Source: Bacteroides ovatus (lineage in GTDB: Bacteria; Bacteroidota; Bacteroidia; Bacteroidales; Bacteroidaceae). Taken from it: a stretch of 64,000 nucleotides of DNA. Positions 50,244-64,000 of the stretch are shown one piece after another (position 1 is the stretch's first letter; each line of letters begins with the position of its first letter). The notes under the pieces are model-generated. The model worked only from the letters and a program-made list of their open reading frames with translations. It ran no database searches and was not told the DNA's origin. The stretch is taken from assembly GCF_001314995.1 (NCBI RefSeq), contig NZ_CP012938.1, positions 310,001-374,000 on the forward strand, in the 5' to 3' direction. The position numbers were made by a program, and so were the translations under genes.

Positions 50244-51452
50244 CTAGCTTTCAAACATTCTACTGCGTGCCAACATGCACGCGCCGACGATTCCTGCTTT
50301 ATCTTTCAACTTAGAGGTGATGATGGCTGAATCTTTATTAACCAGATTTAGAGAGTACTTGCGTACAGCTGTTTTTATAGGTTGTGTGATATAATCACCG
50401 GTTAAAGATAAAGTTCCACCTATAATTACTAGTTCCGGATTGAAGATATTGATTAACCCGGCAATCTGTTTGCCTAGTTTCTGCCCGATTTCTTCTACGA
50501 TTTCAATGCAAAGCAGGTCTTCTTTATTCACGGCAGCAATTATCTCATCAAGAGTGATCGGGTTTTCCTCGGTTGTGATTCGCGTAGATAGTATGGAGCT
50601 TTCCCCACTTTGAATACGCTCCAATAAAATACGATGAAGTGCTGAACCGGAAGCTTCCGTCTCCAGACAGCCTTTTTTGCCGCAATGGCAGATTATTTCA
50701 TTATCATAAGCACTCATGTGTCCAAATTCACCGGAGAATCCGGATTTTCCAGTATAAACCTTACCATCAATAATGATTCCGATACCTACTCCCCAACTTA
50801 CATTCACAAAAATGATATCTTTTTCTCCTTTCACGCAGCCTTGCATATATTCACCATAAGTCATTGCACGCGTGTCATTATCAACAGTTACTTTATATCC
50901 CAATTTTTCGGATAATACATCTGCTAACGGCCTTTCCTCGAAATTGAACTGGCTGAAGCTATACCCTGATTCAGGATTTACACGTCCCGACACATTGACA
51001 TTAATATTTAAGATCTTCTCTTTATTAATAGTGAGCTTCTTTATAAAATTAAGAATATGTTTGCATAACTCATTCATCCCTTCGATTGAGTTCTCAAACT
51101 TATAAGGTATATTCATTTTCAATTCTACCATATCGCCTTTGAAATTTATTAGTCCGATATTGACGGCGAATCTTTTGATGTCTACCCCCAAAAAGTAACC
51201 GGATTCCGGATTGAGCCCATAGAGATTGGGATGGCGTCCACCACTTGTTTCTAATTTGCCATAATCATTAATATATCCGTCATCACACATTTCACCAATA
51301 AATTTGGTGACGGTCGGTACACTTAAATCCAGCTCTTTTGAAAGATCGGGAATTGTAGAACTGCCATTATATATATAATGTGTAATAATCCTCTTTTTGA
51401 CGAGAGCGCTTTTAGAGCCCTTTTCTATTTCTTTCAAGAATTGTTGGTTCAT
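50244..51452 (-). CDS. ROK-family transcriptional repressor (NagC/XylR-like)
   Basis: A 402-residue ROK protein with an N-terminal winged-helix domain (STIPDLSKELDLSVPTVTKF, then DYGKLETSGGRHPNLYGL). A sugar-kinase-like ROK domain follows with DVSWGVGIGI-type nucleotide segments and the zinc motif CHCGKKGCLETEASG. The ATG at 51452 is chosen; an upstream in-frame ATG adds only eight residues. It is divergently oriented to the sugar-utilisation operon starting at 51787, separated by a 334-base region with repeated TTATTAATAA palindromes. The simplest reading is that it represses that operon and is relieved by a sugar or sugar phosphate. Confidence 0.9.
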   Translation of the reverse strand: MNQQFLKEIEKGSKSALVKKRIITHYIYNGSSTIPDLSKELDLSVPTVTKFIGEMCDDGYINDYGKLETSGGRHPNLYGLNPESGYFLGVDIKRFAVNIGLINFKGDMVELKMNIPYKFENSIEGMNELCKHILNFIKKLTINKEKILNINVNVSGRVNPESGYSFSQFNFEERPLADVLSEKLGYKVTVDNDTRAMTYGEYMQGCVKGEKDIIFVNVSWGVGIGIIIDGKVYTGKSGFSGEFGHMSAYDNEIICHCGKKGCLETEASGSALHRILLERIQSGESSILSTRITTEENPITLDEIIAAVNKEDLLCIEIVEEIGQKLGKQIAGLINIFNPELVIIGGTLSLTGDYITQPIKTAVRKYSLNLVNKDSAIITSKLKDKAGIVGACMLARSRMFES

Positions 51453-51495
51453 AACTATGCATATTTGGTAATTCACACAAAGATAATTAATTTTT

Positions 51496-51786: not shown

Positions 51787-53661
51787 ATGAGAAACTATTT
51801 TTTAGGTCTGTGTTTATTATTTGCTTTGTGTTTCACGGCATGCTCTCATTCAGATGATTCTGTTGATGTGCTAATTATTGGTGGTGGTGCTAGTGGGGTA
51901 ACTGCTGGTATTCAGTCTGCTCGAATGGAGGCTGTGACATTGATAGTGGAAGAAACAGAATGGCTGGGTGGAATGCTCACTTCTGCAGGTGTAAGTGCTG
52001 TTGACGGAAACTATGATTTACCGGCAGGCCTATTTGGAGAGTTTCGCGGACATTTGGCAGATTATTATGGTGGACTTGATTCTCTAAAAACCGGTTGGGT
52101 GAGTTCAGTGTTATTTGAACCTTCAGTTGGAAATAAAATTTTCCATGAAATGGTTAATGCAGAGGAAAATCTAAAAGTATGGCATAATGCTACTTTGGTC
52201 AAATTGGAGAGAGAAAATGATTCTTGGATTGCTCAAATTCAGATGCAAGATCATACGATTAAAAAAGTAAGTGCTAAAATATTGATTGATGGTACCGAGC
52301 TAGGGGATATAGCAAAAATGTGCGGTGTGAAGTATGATATCGGTATGGAAAGCCGTCATGATACAAAGGAAGATATTGCTCCGGAAGAGAAAAATAATAT
52401 AGTTCAGGATATTACATATGTAGCAATTTTAAAAGATTATGGCAAAGATGTGACTATTCCTTGTCCTGAAGGATATAATAAGGATGAATTTGCTTGTGCT
52501 TGTGCCAGTCCTGTTTGTATCACGCCTAAAGAGCCGGATCGTGTATGGTCTAAGGAAATGATGATAACTTATGGAAAACTTCCTAATAATAAATACATGA
52601 TTAATTGGCCGATAGAAGGCAATGATTATTATGTAAACTTGGTCGAAATGACCCGTGAGGAACGTGAAGAAGCTCTGAAATATGCAAAACATTATACGAT
52701 GTGTTTCGTCTATTTTCTGCAACATGAATTAGGTTTTAATACATTGGGCTTAGCTGACGATGAATATCCTACTGCTGACAAATTACCCTTTATTCCTTAT
52801 CATAGAGAGTCTAGGAGAATCCATGGATTAGTGCGCTTTAGTCTAAATCATGTTTGTGAACCGTTCAAACAGTCCCAACCTCTTTATCGTACTTGTATCG
52901 CTGTAGGAAATTATCCTGTGGATCATCATCATACCCGTTATCATGGATATGAAGAATTGCCTAATCTTTATTTTCATCCGGTACCTTCATACGGTTTGCC
53001 TTTAGGAACTTTGATTCCAAAAGATGTTGAAGGATTGATCGTTGCTGAAAAATCAATATCTGTTTCTAATATAATTAATGGTACCACTCGTTTGCAACCG
53101 ATGGTTATGCAGATCGGACAAGCAGCGGGAGCATTGGCAGCCCTTGCAGTGAAAGAAAATAAGAGTATTAGCGAGGTGTCTGTTCGTGAAGTGCAAAATG
53201 CAATATTGGACGCGAAAGGATATTTATTGCCTTATTTAGATGTTGCAATAGATCATCCGATGTTTAAATCGTTGCAACGTGTAGGTTCTACAGGAATTTT
53301 GAAGGGTATAGGTAAAAGTGTCGATTGGGCTAATCAAATGTGGTTCAGAGCAGATACTTTGTTATTGGCGAATGAACTGGAAGGATTAGGTGATGTCTAT
53401 CCCTTTGTCAATAAGCAAGTTATTGAAGGTAATAACACCATATCAATTCAGAAAGCTACAGAGATGATAGGAGAGATTGCCGAAAAAGAAGGTATCGAAA
53501 TAAAGGAGGGTAGAGTAGAAGAGATATGGGATGAATTTGATTTGAAGAATTTTGATATGGATCGAGATATTCTACGAAGTGAAATGGCAATTTTGATTGA
53601 TCAGATATTAGATCCTTTCAATAATAAAAAAGTAGATATTACAGGACAGTATATTCAATAG
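51787..53661 (+). CDS. FAD-dependent oxidoreductase lipoprotein
   Basis: A 624-residue exported flavoprotein of the FAD_oxidored (PF12831) type. A lipoprotein signal ends LCFTAC (C19), followed directly by the dinucleotide fold VDVLIIGGGASGVTAGIQ. The E-LG-G-LTS stretch (EWLGGMLTSAGVSAVDG) is typical of the family. A late INGTTRLQPMVMQIGQAAGA block forms the second FAD contact. Residues 480-624 are a helical C-terminal extension. PF12831 proteins occur in many glycan loci, with few known substrates; oxidation of a sugar hydroxyl is possible. It is the first gene of the operon and 44 bases before the DUF4434 gene. Confidence 0.85.
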   Translation: MRNYFLGLCLLFALCFTACSHSDDSVDVLIIGGGASGVTAGIQSARMEAVTLIVEETEWLGGMLTSAGVSAVDGNYDLPAGLFGEFRGHLADYYGGLDSLKTGWVSSVLFEPSVGNKIFHEMVNAEENLKVWHNATLVKLERENDSWIAQIQMQDHTIKKVSAKILIDGTELGDIAKMCGVKYDIGMESRHDTKEDIAPEEKNNIVQDITYVAILKDYGKDVTIPCPEGYNKDEFACACASPVCITPKEPDRVWSKEMMITYGKLPNNKYMINWPIEGNDYYVNLVEMTREEREEALKYAKHYTMCFVYFLQHELGFNTLGLADDEYPTADKLPFIPYHRESRRIHGLVRFSLNHVCEPFKQSQPLYRTCIAVGNYPVDHHHTRYHGYEELPNLYFHPVPSYGLPLGTLIPKDVEGLIVAEKSISVSNIINGTTRLQPMVMQIGQAAGALAALAVKENKSISEVSVREVQNAILDAKGYLLPYLDVAIDHPMFKSLQRVGSTGILKGIGKSVDWANQMWFRADTLLLANELEGLGDVYPFVNKQVIEGNNTISIQKATEMIGEIAEKEGIEIKEGRVEEIWDEFDLKNFDMDRDILRSEMAILIDQILDPFNNKKVDITGQYIQ

Positions 53662-53705
53662 GTAATGATAATATAAGTGTTAACTGCTGTTTTAATTAAA
53701 CTAAT

Positions 53706-54803
53706 ATGAAAACATTAGATCGAAGAGATTTTCTAAAAAAAGCGACATTAGCTGGTGCATCAGCTTTGGCTGTACCAACTTTGTTTGAATCTTGTACTTC
53801 AAAGGCTAGTGCCAGTACAGTAGTGGTAGCTGATGGTTTGGAAAGTAAACTCATTGTTCCTAAAAACAATGGATTAAAAATCACCGGAACTTTTTTGGAT
53901 GAGATTTCACATGATATTCCACATCAAAACTGGGGTGAGAAAGAATGGGACATGGATTTTCAGCATATGAAAAATATAGGAATTGATACGGTAATAATGA
54001 TCCGTTCGGGTTATCGTAAATTTGTAACTTTTCCTTCTCCTTATCTGCTGAAGAAGGGGTGTTATATGCCTTCTGTTGATTTGGTAGATATGTTTTTGCG
54101 TTTGGCTGAAAAGTACGGAATGAAATTCTATTTTGGACTATACGATTCGGGCAAATACTGGGACACAGGAGATATGACTTGGGAGGTGGAAGATAACAAA
54201 TATGTGATTGATGAGGTCTGGGAAAATTATGGTTCCAAGTATAAAAGTTTCGGAGGATGGTATATCAGTGGTGAAATAAGTCGGGCAACGAAAGGTGCGA
54301 TTGGTGCTTTCCATACATTAGGAAAACAATGTAAGGATATATCTAATGGATTGCCGACTTTTATATCGCCTTGGATTGATGGAAAGAAAGCAATAATGGG
54401 AACGACGAAAATGACTAAAGAAGATGCCGTTTCTGTACAACAACACGAAAAAGAATGGGATGAAATTTTTGATGGAATTCATGATGTGGTAGATGCATGT
54501 GCATTTCAAGATGGTCATATTGATTATGATGAATTGGATGCATTCTTTTCTGTCAATAAAAAATTAGCAGATAAGTATGGTATGCAATGTTGGACAAATG
54601 CCGAATCTTTTGACCGTGATATGCCTATTCGTTTTCTACCCATTAAGTTTGATAAACTTCGGCTGAAACTGGAAGCTGCCAAACGTGCCGGATATGATAA
54701 GGCTATTACTTTTGAATTTTCTCATTTTATGAGTCCACAGTCAGCCTATTTGCAAGCTGGTCATTTATATGACAGATATAAAGAATATTTTGAAATAAAA
54801 TAA
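53706..54803 (+). CDS. Tat-exported DUF4434-type TIM-barrel protein, glycosidase-like
   Basis: A 365-residue protein with a twin-arginine signal (LDRRDFLKKATLAG) and a Cys at residue 30 that may or may not be lipidated. The mature part resembles DUF4434: GTFLDEISHDIPHQNWGEKE near the start, DTVIMIRSGYR, then MKFYFGLYDSG and GWYISGEISR. Candidate acidic residues in the style of clan-A glycosidases are E190 (WYISGE, end of a strand) and E337 (ITFEFSHF, penultimate strand), with E300 (WTNAE) a further option. No catalytic activity is established that I can cite. It sits between the FAD lipoprotein and the sugar MFS, so glycan cleavage or modification is likely. Confidence 0.75.
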   Translation: MKTLDRRDFLKKATLAGASALAVPTLFESCTSKASASTVVVADGLESKLIVPKNNGLKITGTFLDEISHDIPHQNWGEKEWDMDFQHMKNIGIDTVIMIRSGYRKFVTFPSPYLLKKGCYMPSVDLVDMFLRLAEKYGMKFYFGLYDSGKYWDTGDMTWEVEDNKYVIDEVWENYGSKYKSFGGWYISGEISRATKGAIGAFHTLGKQCKDISNGLPTFISPWIDGKKAIMGTTKMTKEDAVSVQQHEKEWDEIFDGIHDVVDACAFQDGHIDYDELDAFFSVNKKLADKYGMQCWTNAESFDRDMPIRFLPIKFDKLRLKLEAAKRAGYDKAITFEFSHFMSPQSAYLQAGHLYDRYKEYFEIK

Positions 54804-54808
54804 ATGTT

Positions 54809-56212
54809 ATGAAGTCTACAATCAATTTTGGTTATCTTATATTCCTTTCTGTTGTGGCAGCATTGGGAGGCTTTTTGTTCGGATATGATACCGCGGTTAT
54901 ATCGGGAACAATTGCCCAGGTGACTCAACTATTTCAGTTAGATACGTTGCAACAGGGATGGTATGTAGGATGTGCTTTAGTAGGCTCTATTGTAGGTGTT
55001 CTTTTTGCAGGAATCTTAAGTGATAAGTTAGGAAGAAAACTTACGATGGTTATTTCAGCCGTATTGTTCTCTACATCAGCTTTGGGGTGTGCACTATCTG
55101 CCGATTTTACTCAATTGGTGATCTATCGGATAATAGGTGGAGTAGGGATAGGGGTTGTTTCCATTGTTTCTCCTCTTTATATATCTGAAGTAGCCGTGGC
55201 ACAGTATAGAGGACGCCTGGTGTCATTGTATCAGTTGGCTGTAACAGTCGGTTTCTTAGGAGCTTATTTAGTTAACTATCAATTATTGGCATGGGCGGAG
55301 AGTGGTACGCAATTGAGTGTGGATTGGTTGAATAAAGTATTTATAACTGAAGTATGGAGAGGTATGTTGGGTATGGAAACATTGCCAGCAATCTTATTCT
55401 TCATAATCATATTCTTTATTCCGGAAAGTCCTCGCTGGTTAATCGTACGTGGAAAGGAATTGAAGGCTGTAAATATATTAGAAAAAATATATAATTCAAT
55501 TACAGAAGCGAAAAGTCAATTAAGAGAAACGAAATCTGTACTGACCTCTGAAACGAGATCGGAATGGTCGTTATTAATGAAGCCTGGAATCTTCAAAGCT
55601 GTTATTATCGGTGTTTGTATTGCCATTTTAGGGCAATTTATGGGAGTGAATGCAGTGCTTTATTACGGCCCTTCTATTTTTGAAAATGCAGGACTTTCAG
55701 GTGGCGATTCTCTTTTTTACCAAGTTCTGGTAGGACTAGTCAATACTTTGACCACCGTTCTGGCTCTTGTCATCATTGATAAGGTAGGCCGCAAGAAACT
55801 TGTTTATTACGGAGTTTCGGGAATGGTTGTTTCTCTGATTCTCATCGGCCTGTACTTCCTCTTCGGAGATTCCCTGGGAGTATCCAGCCTCTTCCTGCTT
55901 ATTTTTTTCCTGTTCTATGTATTCTGCTGTGCCGTTTCTATCTGTGCCGTGGTGTTCGTGCTCCTCTCTGAGATGTATCCCACCAAGGTTCGCGGACTGG
56001 CCATGTCGATAGCAGGATTCGCTCTGTGGATCGGAACGTACCTGATCGGACAGTTAACCCCCTGGATGCTCCAGAACCTTACCCCCGCCGGAACATTCTT
56101 CCTGTTCGCCCTCATGTGCGTGCCGTATATGCTGATTGTCTGGAAACTCGTGCCGGAGACTACCGGGAAGTCGCTGGAAGAGATTGAAAGATATTGGACC
56201 CGTTCGGAATAG
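54809..56212 (+). CDS. Sugar-porter MFS transporter (XylE-like)
   Basis: A 467-residue MFS sugar:proton symporter with 12 helices. Family signatures are GGFLFGYDTAVISGTI, LSDKLGRKLTMV, YRIIGGVGIGVVS, PLYISEVAVAQYRGRLVSLYQ (in part), PESPRWLIVRGKE and the C-terminal PETTGKSLEEIE. It would import the monosaccharide released by the operon's other products. The last third (from about 55.86 kb) is markedly G+C-rich with many C-ending codons (57% by hand count in three 60-base lines, versus 37-43% in earlier lines), so the gene looks mosaic. It starts six bases after the DUF4434 stop. Confidence 0.9.
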   Translation: MKSTINFGYLIFLSVVAALGGFLFGYDTAVISGTIAQVTQLFQLDTLQQGWYVGCALVGSIVGVLFAGILSDKLGRKLTMVISAVLFSTSALGCALSADFTQLVIYRIIGGVGIGVVSIVSPLYISEVAVAQYRGRLVSLYQLAVTVGFLGAYLVNYQLLAWAESGTQLSVDWLNKVFITEVWRGMLGMETLPAILFFIIIFFIPESPRWLIVRGKELKAVNILEKIYNSITEAKSQLRETKSVLTSETRSEWSLLMKPGIFKAVIIGVCIAILGQFMGVNAVLYYGPSIFENAGLSGGDSLFYQVLVGLVNTLTTVLALVIIDKVGRKKLVYYGVSGMVVSLILIGLYFLFGDSLGVSSLFLLIFFLFYVFCCAVSICAVVFVLLSEMYPTKVRGLAMSIAGFALWIGTYLIGQLTPWMLQNLTPAGTFFLFALMCVPYMLIVWKLVPETTGKSLEEIERYWTRSE

Positions 56213-56252
56213 TAAAACAAAAAGACCTTAATAACTTAATAATAAAAGATGT

Positions 56253-57416
56253 ATGGATTTTAAGAAACTGGCAAATCAATACAAGGATGAACTCTTGGAT
56301 AATGTTCTTCCTTTCTGGCTTGAAAACTCACAAGATCATGAATATGGAGGCTACTTCACCTGTTTGGATCGTGAAGGAAGAGTTTTCGATACAGATAAAT
56401 TTATCTGGCTGCAAGGCCGCGAAGTGTGGATGTTCTCTATGCTTTACAATAAAGTGGAAAAACGTAAGGAATGGCTGGATTGTGCCGTTCAAGGTGGTGA
56501 GTTTTTAAAAAAATATGGACATGATGGAGACTATAACTGGTATTTTTCCCTTGACCGTTTGGGTAGACCATTGGTAGAACCATACAATATCTTTTCATAT
56601 ACATTCGCTGCCATGGCTTTCGGGCAATTAAGCCTTGCAACCGGTAATCAGGAATATGCTGACATTGCCAAGAAAACCTTCGATATTATCCTTTCCAAAG
56701 TAGATAATCCGAAAGGTAAATGGAATAAACTTCATCCGGGCACTCGTAATCTAAAAAATTTTGCCCTGCCGATGATACTATGCAATCTTGCTATGGAAAT
56801 TGAGCATATTTTAGGCAAGGACTATTTGGAACAAGCGATGGATACTTGTATTCATGAAGTTATGTCTGTCTTCTATCGTCCCGAACTTGGTGGTATCATT
56901 GTTGAGAATGTAGATGTGAATGGTAATCTGATAGATTGCTTTGAAGGACGGCAGATTACCCCTGGCCATGCGATTGAAGCCATGTGGTTTATAATGGATT
57001 TAGGGAAACGCCTAAACCGTCCGGAATTAATCGAAAAGGCTAAGAATATCACTCTTACAATGCTTGAATATGGTTGGGATAAAGAATATGGAGGTATCTA
57101 CTATTTTATGGATCGTAACGGTTGTCCTCCCCAACAACTGGAATGGGACCAGAAACTCTGGTGGGTGCATATTGAAACACTCATATCTCTTCTGAAGAGT
57201 TATCAATTGACCGGAGATAACCAATGTCTGGAATGGTTTGAAAAAGTACACGATTATACATGGACCCATTTTAAAGATAAAGAGCGTCCCGAATGGTATG
57301 GATACTTAAATCGGAGAGGTGAAGTGCTACTACCACTCAAAGGAGGAAAATGGAAAGGATGTTTCCATGTACCAAGAGGGTTATACCAATGCTGGAAAGT
57401 ATTGGAACAGCTATAA
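56253..57416 (+). CDS. N-acylglucosamine 2-epimerase family protein
   Basis: A 387-residue (alpha/alpha)6-barrel AGE enzyme. FIWLQGREVWMFSMLYN, PGHAIEAMWFIMDLGKR, GCPPQQLEWDQKLWWVHIE and KGGKWKGCFHVPRGLYQC match true GlcNAc/ManNAc 2-epimerases (renin-binding protein type) more closely than cellobiose 2-epimerases. It interconverts the C2 epimers of an N-acetylhexosamine or a related sugar. With a ROK (NagC-like) regulator and sugar MFS in the same locus, it would feed ManNAc/GlcNAc-type sugars into amino-sugar catabolism. No sialic acid lyase is present in the visible part. Confidence 0.88.
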   Translation: MDFKKLANQYKDELLDNVLPFWLENSQDHEYGGYFTCLDREGRVFDTDKFIWLQGREVWMFSMLYNKVEKRKEWLDCAVQGGEFLKKYGHDGDYNWYFSLDRLGRPLVEPYNIFSYTFAAMAFGQLSLATGNQEYADIAKKTFDIILSKVDNPKGKWNKLHPGTRNLKNFALPMILCNLAMEIEHILGKDYLEQAMDTCIHEVMSVFYRPELGGIIVENVDVNGNLIDCFEGRQITPGHAIEAMWFIMDLGKRLNRPELIEKAKNITLTMLEYGWDKEYGGIYYFMDRNGCPPQQLEWDQKLWWVHIETLISLLKSYQLTGDNQCLEWFEKVHDYTWTHFKDKERPEWYGYLNRRGEVLLPLKGGKWKGCFHVPRGLYQCWKVLEQL

Positions 57417-57468
57417 ACAATAATGGATATGTTAACCAATCTATATTAATAATCTAAAAATTAATTCT

Positions 57469-60400
57469 ATGACAGAGTTTAACTCAAAAATCAAGAAGAA
57501 CTCTCGTATATTGAAAATATTTATGTTTTCAATATACGCGCTATTTGCATGTGCTATCAGTAGTCATGCACAGAGTTTAGTGAAAGGAACTGTTACTGAT
57601 GGTATAGGAGAACCGCTACCAGGAGTAAGTGTTGTCGTAAAAGGAACTACTAATGGCACTATTACAGATGTAAATGGAAAATATAGCATTCAGGCCACCG
57701 CAAAAGACATTTTATCATTCTCATATGTTGGAATGTCAGATCAGGAAATAAAGGTAGCAGGTCAGACGACCATTAATGTGGTTATGAAAGATGATGTGGC
57801 AGCTTTGGATGAAGTGATTGTGGTAGGATATGGTACTGCCAAGAAGCAATCTTTAACCGGAGCCGTATCTGCGGTGAAAGGCGACGAACTGCTGAAAGCA
57901 CCGGCAACCAATGTGTCGAGTCTTTTAGGTGGACGTTTGCCAGGTATTTCATCTGTTCAAGTATCTGGTGAACCCGGAGACGATCAGGCTACATTACGAG
58001 TTCGTGGCTCTATTTATAATGTTACTTATATAGTAGACGGAATGCCTCGTTCTATTAATGATATTGACCCTAATGATATCGAAAGTGTATCTGTTTTGAA
58101 AGATGGAGCTTCTGCAGCTGTTTATGGATTAAAAGGAGCCGGTGGTGTTATTATTATAACTACAAAAAAAGGTCAGGAAGGAAAATCCAAAATCACTTAT
58201 AATGGTTCAATAGGAGCATCTATGAATGCAAACTTCCCGCAGTTTATGAATGGACCTCAATTTGCATATTATTATAATATGGCTGACATGATGGATAAAA
58301 TGGCTAATGGAAGCATTTCAAACATTAGTCAATATAATCCCGTTTTTACAAAGGCGAATGTGGAAGCTATGTTGAATGGTGATCCTACTGACGGATGGGA
58401 TAATGTTAACTATATTGATAAAGTATTTGGAACTGGTATCAACCAGAAACATAATGTAACCATACAAGGAGGCAGTGATAAGATGCGTTACTTTGCTTCT
58501 GTGGGTTATTTAGGTCAAAAAGGTAACATTGACAATTTCTCTTACAAGAGATACAATTTAAGAACTAATCTTGAGACTCAACTGGCTAAGAACTTCCAGT
58601 TAAGTTTAGGTATTGCAGGAAATGTCGGTAAACGTGAAACTCCGGGATATGCTTCAGGCGGTACGGATTCTAATTCCGAATTGGGTGAACAAGGTTGGTT
58701 GTCAGTAGCTCATCAGACTATAATGATGCATCCCTATTTGCCGGAAACATATGACGGACTTTATACTGCTACTACACAGAATAACACAAGTCTGCCCAAC
58801 AGTCCGTTGGCTGCTATTTATGAATCCGGATACAAGCATACCAATAGCTTTGATTTGCAGACCAACATCTCATTGCAATACAATGTGCCTTGGGTTAAAG
58901 GTTTGAGTGTAAAAGTAACCGGAGCTTATGACTATACAACTTCTCATAATAAGAATTTGAATACGCCTTACTCCACATATATACATAAAATGCCGACTTC
59001 GACAGCAGATTGGACTTGGTCTAAAGCAGACGATCCTCGCGGCACAGCAAATGGAATAAATTTAGGTGAAGGACAGTATAGTTCTCATCAAATGGTAGGC
59101 CAAGGAAGTATAAACTATGCAAGCTCCTTCGGAAAACATAATGTAGAAGCAATGGTATTGGCAGAAATCCGGGATTATAAAGAAAACAGTTTCTCCGGCT
59201 ATAATAAGAACATGAGTTTCTCTGAACTACCGGAATTGAGCTTTGGACAACCGGCAGACTCTCCAATCTCGGGATACAGTGATGCAAACCGTAGTATTGG
59301 TTATGTTTTTCGTTTGAAATATGACTATGACAATAAGTATTTGGCAGAGTTTACAGGTCGATATGATGGTTCTTACAAATTTGCCGGCAATGTTAGTGGG
59401 AAACGTTGGGCATTCTTCCCGTCAGCGTCAGTAGCGTGGAGAATATCTAAAGAAGATTTTATGTCTAGTCTGACATTTCTGGATGATATGAAGATACGTG
59501 CATCTGTCGGTTTATTAGGAAACGATGCAGTGAGTCCGTATGCTTTCCTTAGTACTTACAATTTGATGGATGGTAACAAAAATGCATACCAGACAATTCT
59601 GAATGGAAAAGTAATGCAAGCATTACGCGCCTCTGTAATTGCCAATCCTACTCTAACTTGGGAGAACACCTTAACCTACAATGCAGGATTTGACTTTACG
59701 ATGTGGAATGGTCTGTTGGGAATGGAGTTTGACGCATTCTATAATTATACCTATGATATTTTGACAGCAATGGGAGGCGATTACCCGCCATCTATGGGAG
59801 GATATTATTATACTTATGCCAACTATAATAAGGTGGATAGCAAAGGCGTTGAAGTAACGGTGAGCCATCGTAATAAATTAAACTTGGCAGGTAAGCCATT
59901 CTCCTATGGCGCAAGCTTCAATCTGACATTTGCAAGAAACCGTTATCTCCGTTATCCAGATAGTCCGAACACAGTAGAGTGGAGAAAACGCACAGGACGT
60001 AGTGTTGATGCTTCTGTTGTGTGGGTTGCAGATGGCTTATTCCGTTCGGAAGAAGAAATAGACAATTCAGCCTGGTATGGCACTCGTCCTAATGTCGGTG
60101 ATATCAAATACAGAGATTTAAATGGTGATGGTAAAATAGACGAAGATGACAGAACACGTGTTGGACGTGGCAATCGTCCCGAATTAACTTACGGTTTGAA
60201 CCTGAATTGTGCTTGGAATGGATTCGATTTAAGTGCACAATTTACTGGAGGTGCACTGTTTGATGTATCGTTGACAGGAACTTATTACAATGGATATGAC
60301 GATAATACAGTCTGGACACAGGCATTTAAAGAAGGTGCCAACTCACCACTATATCTGGTTCAGAATGCATATACAGTAGAAAATCCGAATGGAACATTCC

Positions 60401-60693
60401 CACGACTTACACTGGGTAATCAAGGACACGGAGGAGATAATGGATTAGCTTCCACTTTCTGGTTGCGTAACGGTAGATACCTTCGTCTCAAATCCGCACA
60501 ATTGGGTTACACATTCCCCAAGAGATGGATGAGTCCTGTCGGCATTCAGAATCTTAGAATTTATGTAGAAGGTTCTAATTTATTCACGATTTCCGGTCTT
60601 CCTGATGGAATCGATCCTGAATCTCCGGGAGTAAATAACGGATACTATCCTCAACAACGCACCATTATGGGCGGTATAACTTTGACTTTCTAA
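57469..60693 (+). CDS. SusC-like TonB-dependent outer membrane transporter
   Basis: A 1074-residue SusC-family protein. A signal peptide (IFMFSIYALFACAISSHAQ) is followed by a carboxypeptidase-D-like N-terminal domain (VKGTVTDGIGEPLPGVSVVV). The TonB-box region ALDEVIVVGYGTAKKQSLTG and the plug (AVSAVKGDELLKAPATNVSS) come next, then a long beta-barrel ending in the terminal aromatic (GGITLTF). It imports oligosaccharides across the outer membrane with TonB and the SusD partner encoded 18 bases downstream. The substrate cannot be inferred from the transporter sequence alone. Confidence 0.96.
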   Translation: MTEFNSKIKKNSRILKIFMFSIYALFACAISSHAQSLVKGTVTDGIGEPLPGVSVVVKGTTNGTITDVNGKYSIQATAKDILSFSYVGMSDQEIKVAGQTTINVVMKDDVAALDEVIVVGYGTAKKQSLTGAVSAVKGDELLKAPATNVSSLLGGRLPGISSVQVSGEPGDDQATLRVRGSIYNVTYIVDGMPRSINDIDPNDIESVSVLKDGASAAVYGLKGAGGVIIITTKKGQEGKSKITYNGSIGASMNANFPQFMNGPQFAYYYNMADMMDKMANGSISNISQYNPVFTKANVEAMLNGDPTDGWDNVNYIDKVFGTGINQKHNVTIQGGSDKMRYFASVGYLGQKGNIDNFSYKRYNLRTNLETQLAKNFQLSLGIAGNVGKRETPGYASGGTDSNSELGEQGWLSVAHQTIMMHPYLPETYDGLYTATTQNNTSLPNSPLAAIYESGYKHTNSFDLQTNISLQYNVPWVKGLSVKVTGAYDYTTSHNKNLNTPYSTYIHKMPTSTADWTWSKADDPRGTANGINLGEGQYSSHQMVGQGSINYASSFGKHNVEAMVLAEIRDYKENSFSGYNKNMSFSELPELSFGQPADSPISGYSDANRSIGYVFRLKYDYDNKYLAEFTGRYDGSYKFAGNVSGKRWAFFPSASVAWRISKEDFMSSLTFLDDMKIRASVGLLGNDAVSPYAFLSTYNLMDGNKNAYQTILNGKVMQALRASVIANPTLTWENTLTYNAGFDFTMWNGLLGMEFDAFYNYTYDILTAMGGDYPPSMGGYYYTYANYNKVDSKGVEVTVSHRNKLNLAGKPFSYGASFNLTFARNRYLRYPDSPNTVEWRKRTGRSVDASVVWVADGLFRSEEEIDNSAWYGTRPNVGDIKYRDLNGDGKIDEDDRTRVGRGNRPELTYGLNLNCAWNGFDLSAQFTGGALFDVSLTGTYYNGYDDNTVWTQAFKEGANSPLYLVQNAYTVENPNGTFPRLTLGNQGHGGDNGLASTFWLRNGRYLRLKSAQLGYTFPKRWMSPVGIQNLRIYVEGSNLFTISGLPDGIDPESPGVNNGYYPQQRTIMGGITLTF

Positions 60694-60711
60694 ACCTTTA
60701 AAAGTTCTATT

Positions 60712-62373
60712 ATGAAAACAAAAGTATTAAGTATCATATTGTTGGGAGCCTCTTTAGGGCTTGGCTCATGTAGTGATTATCTGGACATGACTCCAACAGA
60801 CAGAGCATCAGATAAACTTGTATGGAGTAAACTCGACTATGCAGAACAGGCAGTCAACGATTTCTATCGCTATATAGATTATTTAGGAGTCTACAGGGAT
60901 GGACAATGTTTGGCAGGAATGACAGAAGCTCTGACAGATCAGCTTAAATATGGTTCCTACAATTATATGGCTAAATGTCAGATACCTAGTGAAATTGCTT
61001 ATGGAGGTTCTGTTCTCACAGTGAATTATGTTAGTACTTACCTTGGCAACTGGGGGACGATGTACGAATATGTGCGCCGTGTCAATGAAGGTATCAACAA
61101 ATTAAAGAAATATGCTTCATTTGGTCAGGCTGATGAAGAACGCTTGGAAGCTGAAATGCGTTTCTTCAGAGGGTATCTCTATACAGATTTATTAAAGCGT
61201 TATAAAGAAGTGATTATATACGATGAGAATCTGGATAATATAAAAAAGGATATGCCAGTTAGTTCGGAAGCCGACGGATGGAATTTTGTATATAATGATC
61301 TAAAATATGCCGGTGAACATTTGCCTGTTGATAAAACTCCTAACGGACGTTTAACTAGCGGAGCTGCTTATGCAATGTTATCGAGAGCTATGTTGTATGC
61401 GGAAAGATGGGATGACGCTCGTATTGCAGCTGAAAAGGTGATGGGAATGGGTTATGAATTAGAAGCAAAAGAAGACTATTCAAATGCCTTTAAAGCAGGA
61501 AGCAAAGAAGCCATTCTACAATATTGTTATGATAAGAGTTCCACTGTGACTCATGACTTTGATGGATATATGGTTCCTGGAGGTGATAAAGCGCTCGACG
61601 GCAATTCCATGACCGGAGGATTCGGTACCCCGACACAAGAAATGGTTGAATCGTATGAATATGCAGATGGTAGTGGCTTCCCCGATTGGAGTGCATGGCA
61701 TACTGCTGAAGGTACTACAACGACTCCTCCTTATGCCAAATTGGAACCACGTTTTAAAGCTACCATTCTCTATAATGGAGCAACATGGAAAGGCAGACCG
61801 ATAGAATCTTTCGTAAACGGTACTGATGGTTGGGCTGCATGGAAAACAGATGCCAAACCGGAAGGACGTTCTACTACCGGGTATTATTTACGTAAACTGG
61901 TAGATGAAGCTCATAATTTTACTTCCATACAAGCCAGTACACAGCCATGGACAGAAATTCGTTACGCAGAGGTATTACTGAATCATGCAGAAGCATGTTA
62001 TCATCTGAATGGCTATACGGATAAGGCAAATAAAGACATAAAAGATATTCGTAACAGAGTGGGATTGTCTTACACAGACAAAAGTGGGGATGATTTAATG
62101 AAAGCCATCCGTCAGGAACGCAAAGTAGAACTTGCTTATGAAGGACATTATTATTGGGACATGCGTCGTTGGAAATTATCTGCGACAGCATTTACCGGTA
62201 TTCGTCTTCATGGAATGAAAATAGAGAAAAATGCAAATGGGTCTTTCACTTACATTTATACAGAATGTGATGATAAAGATCGTAATTTCCCGACTAAGAT
62301 GTATCGTTTCCCAATGCCACAGGCAGAGTTGGACAATAACGGTGCGGTAACTCAATATGCAGAATGGCAATAA
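60712..62373 (+). CDS. SusD-like outer membrane glycan-binding lipoprotein
   Basis: A 553-residue RagB/SusD protein. A lipoprotein signal ends GLGSC at about residue 20, followed by SDYLDMTPTDRASD. TPR-like helices occur in the first half (LEAEMRFFRGYLYTDLLKRY, AYAMLSRAMLYAERWDDA). The late IRYAEVLLNHAEACYHL and RQERKVELAYEGHYYWDMRR blocks are the family signature. It forms the lid of the SusC barrel and captures glycan. It is 18 bases after susC and 18 bases before the DUF5018-like lipoprotein. Confidence 0.95.
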   Translation: MKTKVLSIILLGASLGLGSCSDYLDMTPTDRASDKLVWSKLDYAEQAVNDFYRYIDYLGVYRDGQCLAGMTEALTDQLKYGSYNYMAKCQIPSEIAYGGSVLTVNYVSTYLGNWGTMYEYVRRVNEGINKLKKYASFGQADEERLEAEMRFFRGYLYTDLLKRYKEVIIYDENLDNIKKDMPVSSEADGWNFVYNDLKYAGEHLPVDKTPNGRLTSGAAYAMLSRAMLYAERWDDARIAAEKVMGMGYELEAKEDYSNAFKAGSKEAILQYCYDKSSTVTHDFDGYMVPGGDKALDGNSMTGGFGTPTQEMVESYEYADGSGFPDWSAWHTAEGTTTTPPYAKLEPRFKATILYNGATWKGRPIESFVNGTDGWAAWKTDAKPEGRSTTGYYLRKLVDEAHNFTSIQASTQPWTEIRYAEVLLNHAEACYHLNGYTDKANKDIKDIRNRVGLSYTDKSGDDLMKAIRQERKVELAYEGHYYWDMRRWKLSATAFTGIRLHGMKIEKNANGSFTYIYTECDDKDRNFPTKMYRFPMPQAELDNNGAVTQYAEWQ

Positions 62374-62391
62374 ATCTAAAATGAAAACATT

Positions 62392-64000
62392 ATGAAAAAG
62401 AATATATTATATCTATTATTAGGGATTTTGGCTCTCACGAGTTCTTGCCAGGATCCGGAATATGTGCTTCCTACTGCGGACAGACAGGGAATCACGAGCT
62501 TGACTGCACTCTTTACTTCTGGGCCATACGTGGATAAAGAGGCTGTGGTATATACTATTGCAGATGCTTCTGTAGATAAGTATGTAATTCCTATGCCATG
62601 GTATTATCCGGAAAATAGTGATAATGAAACTTCAGAATATATGAAAGCGATGAGGATTCAGGCAAAGTTGGCACCAAACTGTACTATTGAACCGGTTCTT
62701 TCAATTCTCGATCTGACTAAAGAGAATTATTTCACTTATACAGACGCTCAAGGATATAAGAAACAAATCTGCATCACAGGCGAAAGAGTTAAGTCTACTA
62801 AGTGTCAGTTATTAAGTTTCTCAATACCGTCTGAAGACATTACAGGTATTATTGATGAAGACCACAAAACTGTATCTTTAATCTCTGCGGAAGATTTATC
62901 TTCTTGCTTGGCAGATTATTCACTGTCGGCTCATGCGACCATGTCTCCGGATCCTAAAACAGAGCCTCTTAATTTTAATTCACCTGTTGAGCTTACAGTG
63001 ATTGCTCACGATGGAGTGACAAAGCAAACTTATACTATTCAAAAAGCAGTACCGGATAAGATTCCTTACGGATATAGAAAAGGTAGTGAGACAGAATTAT
63101 TTAAATTGGATATGGGAGTTATCGGCTTACCTTGGACTGGAGCAAATGCACCTTCTTTAGCTGTTTCCGGAAATAATCTGGTAGTTTGCTTGGGTGATGG
63201 TACCACAACTCCTGCATATTACAATGCATCTACGGGAAATAAGATTGGTAATGTAACTTTGGGTAGTGTGAGTGTTGCATCTTTAGGATGTATGACAAGT
63301 GATAGTAGGGGAAATATATTATTAGCAACGAAGGCTACTAATGGCAAGTCTTTCTCAATCTATAAGACTTCTTCTGTTACGACTGCTCCAACTTTATTGA
63401 CTACTTATACTAATAATACAGGGTTAGATATGGGTACGAAAGTGTCTATTCAAGGAGATATTAATACTAATGCCTCTATTATTGCTACTTGTGACGGAAC
63501 AGCCAGTTCAGGTTCCAATAAGTTTGTTCGTTGGATTATAACAGACGGTGTATTGGGAAGTCCTCAAGTAGTAACAGTGAATGGTGTAGGTAATTGGGGA
63601 GCTCCCGCATCAAACACTAAAGTTGTGACTAAAGGAACTACTGCTCAAAGTGATTATTTTTTGTCATACTATGATTCTAACATTCTTTATTGGGTGAATG
63701 GAACAAATAATAATGCAAGTAAATCTCTGGAAGACTCCGACAATGGTAATTCTTGGGCAATGAATAACAACTGTCTGGATACAAGAAGCTTTAATAATGC
63801 ACAATATCTTGTATTGGTATGTACAGCTCATTTCCCGCAATGGGGTGGAACTCCATGCTTATATATGTATGATGTAACGTCAGACGGATCATTCACTGGT
63901 ACAATATCTACTTCAGATGCTCTGTCATTCAATCCTTCACTTTCCTCATACAATTCATCCGATGGTGTAGCTGCAACAGGTGATGTATTGCTTGCTCCGA
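62392..64000 (+). CDS. DUF5018-like surface lipoprotein, 5' part (runs off the window)
   Basis: The visible 536 codons begin MKKNILYLLLGILALTSSCQ, a lipoprotein signal ending TSSC. ITSLTALFTSGPYVDKEAVV follows, the start of the DUF5018 type found with SusC/SusD pairs. After two or three beta-sandwich segments the sequence becomes Thr/Ser/Asn/Gly-rich (for example NLVVCLGDGTTTPAYYN), resembling a beta-propeller. It is probably the third outer-membrane binding protein of the locus (surface glycan-binding protein). The stop and any following enzymes lie beyond base 64000. Confidence 0.8.
   Translation, partial: MKKNILYLLLGILALTSSCQDPEYVLPTADRQGITSLTALFTSGPYVDKEAVVYTIADASVDKYVIPMPWYYPENSDNETSEYMKAMRIQAKLAPNCTIEPVLSILDLTKENYFTYTDAQGYKKQICITGERVKSTKCQLLSFSIPSEDITGIIDEDHKTVSLISAEDLSSCLADYSLSAHATMSPDPKTEPLNFNSPVELTVIAHDGVTKQTYTIQKAVPDKIPYGYRKGSETELFKLDMGVIGLPWTGANAPSLAVSGNNLVVCLGDGTTTPAYYNASTGNKIGNVTLGSVSVASLGCMTSDSRGNILLATKATNGKSFSIYKTSSVTTAPTLLTTYTNNTGLDMGTKVSIQGDINTNASIIATCDGTASSGSNKFVRWIITDGVLGSPQVVTVNGVGNWGAPASNTKVVTKGTTAQSDYFLSYYDSNILYWVNGTNNNASKSLEDSDNGNSWAMNNNCLDTRSFNNAQYLVLVCTAHFPQWGGTPCLYMYDVTSDGSFTGTISTSDALSFNPSLSSYNSSDGVAATGDVLLAP

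Follow-up and report, generated by a model that had tools for sequence, protein, structure and literature searches.

A Bacteroides ovatus polysaccharide utilization locus with a conserved flavoprotein-DUF4434 gene pair and a possible phosphodiester-containing amino-sugar substrate

The 64,000-nucleotide stretch of DNA analyzed here (the window; positions 310001 to 374000 of the single 6.47-Mb contig of Bacteroides ovatus, NZ_CP012938.1) ends within an operon in which genes for a SusC/SusD pair, an amino-sugar epimerase and a sugar porter are accompanied by genes for a FAD_oxidored (PF12831) flavoprotein, referred to below as the FAD protein, and a DUF4434 protein. We propose that the operon is a polysaccharide utilization locus (PUL) for an O-acetylated glycan containing an N-acetylhexosamine (N-acetylmannosamine, ManNAc, or N-acetylglucosamine, GlcNAc) in phosphodiester linkage, for example, a teichoic acid-like or other phosphorylated bacterial surface polymer, and we give this reading an even chance of being correct. 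It is favored because of the type of epimerase encoded, the enrichment of particular enzymes in related loci and the domain fusions found there. DUF4434 is itself predicted to be a glycosidase, and its gene is closely paired with that of the FAD protein.

Operon layout and the enzymes encoded beyond the window

The operon begins with the gene for the FAD protein (51787..53661; Pfam, 5.7e-95), which is followed on the plus strand by genes encoding the DUF4434 protein (53706..54803; Pfam, 1.2e-89), with a twin-arginine-type signal (TAT_signal_seq model above cut-off); a sugar porter of the major facilitator superfamily (MFS; 54809..56212; Sugar_tr, 5.6e-109; TIGR00879 above cut-off); an N-acyl-D-glucosamine 2-epimerase (AGE; 56253..57416; NCBIfam equivalog NF052547, 731.8 bits against a cut-off of 600); a SusC TonB-linked outer membrane transporter (57469..60693; TIGR04056, 2e-302); a SusD glycan-binding lipoprotein (60712..62373; SusD_RagB, 7e-74); and a DUF5018 protein (62392..64000; DUF5018, 1e-161), the gene for which is cut by the end of the window and specifies a complete product of 565 amino acids (L004:392-2089). 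From FAD through DUF5018, every gene lies on the plus strand and intergenic gaps are 5 to 52 bases. An earlier note on this DNA had assigned all of these genes to one operon together with that of a ROK-family transcriptional regulator with a winged helix-turn-helix (50244..51476; ROK, 4e-58; HTH_24, 2e-7); the grouping is sound except for the ROK gene, which is located before 51787 on the minus strand and is divergent from the operon.

The same-strand run continues past 64000 to L004:10162 (approximately window position 72162) with small gaps or overlaps between genes and, as judged from gene spacing, is probably transcribed as a unit. Its plus-strand genes beyond the window encode a predicted NAGPA phosphodiester glycosidase (approximately 64180-65178; PF09992, 97.5 bits against a curated cut-off of 25) and, by Pfam assignment, a GHL10-DUF4985 protein (65232-66635), a MetallophosN/C calcineurin-like phosphatase (66658-68091), a SASA esterase-GHL10-DUF4985 fusion (68060-70753) and a DUF5009 protein (70708-72162). 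The lack of hydrolase genes holds within the window but not past 64000, where the NAGPA, GHL10, phosphatase and SASA-GHL10 genes follow at once, and the view of a locus without hydrolytic enzymes is not supported, both on account of these predicted phosphodiester glycosidase, GHL10, phosphatase and esterase genes and because DUF4434 is glycosidase-like. The apparent lack of a named glycosidase was largely an artifact, because the window stops at 64000; the surprise is lessened rather than removed, because none of the downstream enzymes belongs to a classical, named glycoside hydrolase family. By the earlier note's own terms, which named a classical glycosidase set right after 64000 as a refutation, its reading is partly refuted. 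With adjacent SusC and SusD genes (57469-62373), predicted carbohydrate-active domains (NAGPA, GHL10, SASA and phosphatase) and a predicted glycosidase in DUF4434, the locus is ordinary as a PUL and unusual in its enzyme set, and its pairing of FAD and DUF4434 genes is well supported.

DUF4434 and its flavoprotein partner

The AlphaFold2 (AF2) model of the DUF4434 protein is a (beta/alpha)8 barrel of the clan GH-A type, with 4H41, Cwp19, GH5 and GH164 as its nearest folds. Glu190 (at the end of strand 4) and Glu300 (following strand 7) are invariant in 137/137 aligned domains down to approximately 16% identity (105 near and 32 far domains, comprising 134 distinct sequences; 3 of 140 rows, with fewer than 150 aligned residues, were dropped), and R100, D147, E337 and H340 are variable among the far domains. 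We predict from the model and these residues that DUF4434 is a clan GH-A-type glycosidase with Glu190 and Glu300 as its acid pair; as a predicted glycosidase, it need not be one half of a nonhydrolytic machine. It shares the barrel of clan GH-A enzymes such as GH5 mannanases and the GH164 beta-mannosidase, but identity in those rows is only 10 to 14%. The protein is related to Protein Data Bank (PDB) entry 4H41, which is BT_0435 of Bacteroides thetaiotaomicron and bears the title "putative alpha-L-fucosidase," a label given by its depositors. DUF4434 was not named in any paper found in the literature searched and, among the matches listed for 4H41, none was by title about this protein.

That the FAD and DUF4434 genes form a pair, as the earlier note held, was upheld by a genus-wide search for the FAD protein (80 genomes; E value, 1e-80) that was not anchored on DUF4434 and whose coordinates were compared by eye with those of a DUF4434 search. 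The close FAD subfamily was present in 15/80 genomes and DUF4434 lay directly downstream in 14 of these, the neighbor in genome G109 being a 54%-identical DUF4434 paralog. The exception is G110, where the FAD gene's 3' end and a DDE transposase gene overlap (L196:6174-9482) and no DUF4434 was found in the genome. DUF4434 was present in 28/80 genomes, half of which (14/28) were without a close FAD match, so that the FAD step looks optional; in three of these 14 (G101, G102 and G114), DUF4434 is situated at a contig edge. Among loci fetched by DUF4434, a procedure that biases the count, 18/19 close FAD genes (the window's own included) had DUF4434 directly downstream; for the 19th (L062), the locus search placed DUF4434 at the downstream position, where an overlapping minus-strand open reading frame (ORF) is also found. 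A same-strand DUF4434 domain occurred within 250 bases of 23/28 FAD hits in the fetched loci. More distant FAD_oxidored proteins (approximately 26 to 27% identical) adjoin DUF4434 domains in L032, L043, L056 and L080, and others (approximately 25% identical) are two genes away from DUF4434 in L044, L057 and L060. As a 48%-identical FAD protein from another genus (L206) lacks a DUF4434 neighbor, we claim the pairing for the close FAD subfamily only. A second DUF4434 protein, 51 to 57% identical, co-occurs with FAD (2x2 counts of 8, 6, 1 and 58). When FAD presence was compared with clusters of downstream enzymes, none stood out, the lowest uncorrected p value besides that of FAD itself being 0.04 for a cluster of 184-amino-acid proteins.

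No reaction can be assigned to the FAD protein, because its AF2 model (predicted local distance difference test score, 83.5) matched only generic flavoprotein folds, at a template modeling score of approximately 0.3; a sequence search of the PDB retrieved nothing at 1e-3. Its N terminus appears lipobox-like by eye and, by pattern matching, a loose lipobox pattern was present in 15/19 FAD proteins and a twin-arginine pattern in 0/19, whereas the neighboring DUF4434 protein carries a twin-arginine signal. If these predicted signals hold, they pose a puzzle as to the site of flavin loading.

The epimerase, related loci and the nature of the substrate

The operon's AGE matches structures 6f04 (8e-159) and 2gz6 (9e-155) and exceeds the cut-off for the N-acylglucosamine 2-epimerase equivalog; the earlier view that it acts on a released amino sugar fits this true AGE type, and by its sequence it probably receives such a sugar. 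A role in sialic acid catabolism was considered and rejected: Pfam scans detected no DHDPS-family lyase among the operon proteins, and a different epimerase gene adjoins an N-acetylneuraminate lyase-like gene at 802-804 kb, with another such lyase-like gene at 1859 kb (lyase models below cut-offs). Because the operon's AGE is a true epimerase and differs from the one encoded next to a lyase-like gene, ManNAc or GlcNAc released from a glycan is its likely substrate. In 75/81 DUF4434 loci (the 6 without an anchor ORF under our ORF filter were left out), a sugar porter lay no more than three genes from DUF4434 in 67, and 41 of the 75 had AGE, 29 ROK, 45 SusC and 19 a FAD_oxidored relative; DUF4434 and the porter, often with AGE, therefore constitute a core around which downstream enzymes vary.

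Of 98 DUF4434 loci, we kept the 58 that span 15 kb or more and hold SusC and compared them with 40 other SusC loci, all from this genome; the comparison was repeated with a 41-locus subset drawn from a one-genome-per-species collection, in which some pairs of loci still share a genome. AGE was found in 46/58 DUF4434 loci and 3/40 controls, GHL10 in 24/58 and 0/40 (17/41 against 0/40 in the subset; p = 2e-6) and MetallophosN/C-type phosphatase in 12/58 and 0/40. Any phosphatase or NAGPA occurred in 26/58 against 2/40 (26 against 5 when glycerophosphodiesterase, GDPD, was added) and in 13/41 against 2/40 of the subset (p = 0.003). Domain fusion provides the best link between these enzymes. At this site, SASA is fused to GHL10 in the operon and to NAGPA in a second gene run described below, and all eight candidate phosphatase fusions from related loci were scanned with Pfam: five join a calcineurin-like phosphatase to DUF4434 (L142:9091-11277, L143:6979-9165, L144:7305-9578, L146:10732-13047 and L015:17644-19830) and three join GHL10-DUF4985 to a MetallophosN/C phosphatase (L140:2345-5020, L078:4454-7135 and L087:2856-5537). 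The SusC-SusD-DUF5018-NAGPA-GHL10-phosphatase-SASA set recurs, whole or in part, in L140, L149, L150, L152, L153 and L154.

On the basis of the genes present, their families, the DUF4434 fold and invariant acids, and the pairing and fusions observed, a pathway may be proposed in which the enzyme activities, the sequence of steps, the class of substrate, the regulation and the part played by FAD are all conjectural. SusC and SusD would bring oligomers in, SASA would strip O-acetyl groups, GHL10 would cleave the glycan backbone, NAGPA would cut sugar-1-phosphodiester bonds and the metallophosphatase would take off the phosphate. The twin-arginine-exported DUF4434 protein, with Glu190 as acid/base and Glu300 as nucleophile, would then release a terminal amino sugar beside the MFS porter, which would import the ManNAc or GlcNAc; AGE would interconvert the two and feed GlcNAc catabolism under ROK control, and the FAD protein may be an accessory acting on the substrate or product of DUF4434 in a subset of species.

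Several observations weigh against this proposal. Enrichment was borderline for phosphatase alone in the 41-locus set (5/41 against 0/40; p = 0.055) and not significant for NAGPA alone (10/58 against 2/40, p = 0.11; 5/41 against 2/40, p = 0.43), and neither SASA (7/58 against 3/40) nor GDPD (3/58 against 3/40) was enriched. In 32/58 DUF4434 loci, no phosphatase, NAGPA or GDPD gene was detected in the stretch read. The control loci all come from one genome and the related loci are not independent. Other enzymes occur in related loci (GH89 and an annotated GH3 in Bacteroides finegoldii, GH97 in L148), indicating that the substrate varies; paralogs of DUF4434 may differ in substrate even where these acids are shared; and the enzyme activities are predictions.

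We favor a phosphodiester-containing amino-sugar glycan over a host glycan, at about even odds. A PUL that degrades mucin-type or other host chains with a terminal amino sugar, the phosphoester enzymes being incidental, is the less probable but still appreciable alternative. It draws on B. thetaiotaomicron, in which BT0438 is reported to be an active GH89 alpha-N-acetylglucosaminidase (PMC8225759) and the SusC protein BT_0439, called implicated in host glycan degradation, was observed in PMC5238430 following growth on GOS and in one of two columns for milk oligosaccharides, and not on lactose; it also draws on genes for a sialidase, a GH2 mannosidase-like protein and GH20 that are located past the second gene run described below. 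These last genes, however, form a separate run some 20 kb beyond the operon end, Pfam scans of the operon matched no GH89, GH20, BNR sialidase or sulfatase domain, and a host substrate leaves NAGPA, the phosphatase and SASA unexplained. A GH89-type PUL like that of BT0438 was rejected, as NAGLU (PF05089) was not matched in the operon, though it is present in B. finegoldii L007.

In gut Bacteroidota, oxidative (3-keto) cleavage of glycosides employs NAD-dependent Gfo/Idh/MocA enzymes together with PF06439 proteins. The oxidative route of the earlier note can be spelled out as a nonstandard releasing unit, with the FAD protein oxidizing a hydroxyl on a glycan ring and DUF4434 finishing the cleavage of the oxidized sugar. 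It resembles these systems in that an oxidoreductase gene adjoins that of a glycan-acting protein. The position of the FAD subfamily directly upstream of DUF4434 across the genus speaks for such a route, as do the recurrent proximity of distant FAD_oxidored and DUF4434 genes, albeit in loci fetched by DUF4434, and a GDPD fused to a 3-keto-disaccharide hydrolase domain (PF06439) in one FAD-bearing locus (L148:12657-14132, which also has DUF4434, MFS and AGE). Set against this are the ordinary invariant acid pair of DUF4434, the half of DUF4434-bearing genomes with no close FAD match, the failure of any downstream enzyme cluster to track with FAD, the lack of a match to PF06439 or Gfo/Idh/MocA in the 12 same-strand operon proteins (Pfam; E value, 0.001) and the occurrence of PF06439-like domains in only 3/98 DUF4434 loci; we consider the route unlikely. 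We similarly doubt that FAD and DUF4434 are an extracytoplasmic oxidation-coupled pair in which the flavoenzyme readies an unusual sugar or a ring hydroxyl of the phosphodiester-linked amino-sugar glycan for DUF4434 or removes its product.

Wall teichoic acid is joined to muramic acid through GlcNAc-1-phosphate, and its linkage unit contains ManNAc. Scavenging of peptidoglycan or wall glycan, with GHL10 cutting the amino-sugar backbone, NAGPA the GlcNAc-1-phosphate link to teichoic acid and AGE handling ManNAc from the linkage unit, strikes us as improbable. A GHL10 protein of the second run matches Cwp19 (3e-9, its only PDB match), which is reported as a peptidoglycan lytic transglycosylase (PMC6016235, PMC6811678), but the operon's own stand-alone GHL10 protein has no PDB match at 1e-3 and no amidase, peptidase or muramidase domain was matched in the operon by Pfam scans. 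Starch is the reported substrate of another GHL10 protein (PMC9967864), so membership of the family does not fix the substrate.

Related systems and neighboring genes

The closest known system is the BT0435-BT0453 region of B. thetaiotaomicron, which includes BT_0435, the GH89 gene BT0438 and the SusC/SusD genes BT0439-40, and contains operons BT0439-BT0443 and BT0453-BT0449. The gene listing in PMC10434189 gives BT0438-40 as GH89, SusC and SusD, BT0442 as DUF4855 and BT0446-49 as DUF5009, family-10 glycosylhydrolase and calcineurin-like phosphoesterase genes, and the BT0438-49 genes that it lists change in expression with iron supply; on the strength of the BT0446-49 entries, enzymes of the same types appear to lie near the DUF4434 gene of B. 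thetaiotaomicron. The GH89 and DUF4855 genes are absent from the B. ovatus operon, and the correspondence of genes is inferred from their numbering. B. thetaiotaomicron operons of matching content have been described as gut induced, with inducing substrates not known. The operon's NAGPA shares its domain and an NLDGGGS-type motif with the human uncovering enzyme NAGPA and the DUF2233 protein 3OHG; it aligns with them by sequence over part of the domain only and may have a similar sugar-1-phosphodiester activity. No paper linking DUF2233 and the uncovering enzyme, or a phosphodiester glycosidase, to Bacteroides was retrieved from the literature searched.

A second, convergent and partly paralogous run lies on the minus strand (L004:10818-18999 plus L005:91-11589; approximately window positions 72818-92600) and contains genes for SGNH, GHL10, NAGPA, a SASA-NAGPA fusion, DUF5009, proteins without Pfam matches, GHL10, SusD, SusC and a second AGE. 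This AGE is 90% identical to that of the operon and has as its neighbor a 154-amino-acid MFS remnant that is 98% identical (97% in DNA over 522 bases). Genome G103 (L139-L140), in which DUF4434 is 97% identical, has the same two-run arrangement, with an IS1182-family transposase gene between the SusD and SGNH genes (L139:15261-16952). Past the second run, on the plus strand (L005:11704-16999), are the BNR sialidase, GH2 mannosidase-like and GH20 genes mentioned above, the last of which is cut by the end of the stretch. A variant locus (L142:4891-14685) encodes several DUF4434 proteins, an ADP-ribosylglycohydrolase-family protein, a PfkB sugar kinase and a sugar/ureide-type permease. The B. finegoldii record L007 is labeled a plasmid but looks like a piece of chromosome, since thrS, infC, rpmI and rplT are aboard.

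In summary, the FAD flavoenzyme gains a conserved gene partner, and a DUF4434-porter-epimerase module is found in many Bacteroidales loci. DUF4434, a family for which a structure has been solved and the literature searched reports no function, would, if our prediction is correct, become a glycosidase that can be tested through two named catalytic residues. Should the two proteins prove to be an oxidation-coupled pair, the FAD family would gain a role in glycan breakdown and DUF4434 would represent a new glycosidase family. If the proposed substrate is correct, the locus would show how gut Bacteroides eat phosphate-linked amino-sugar polymers.

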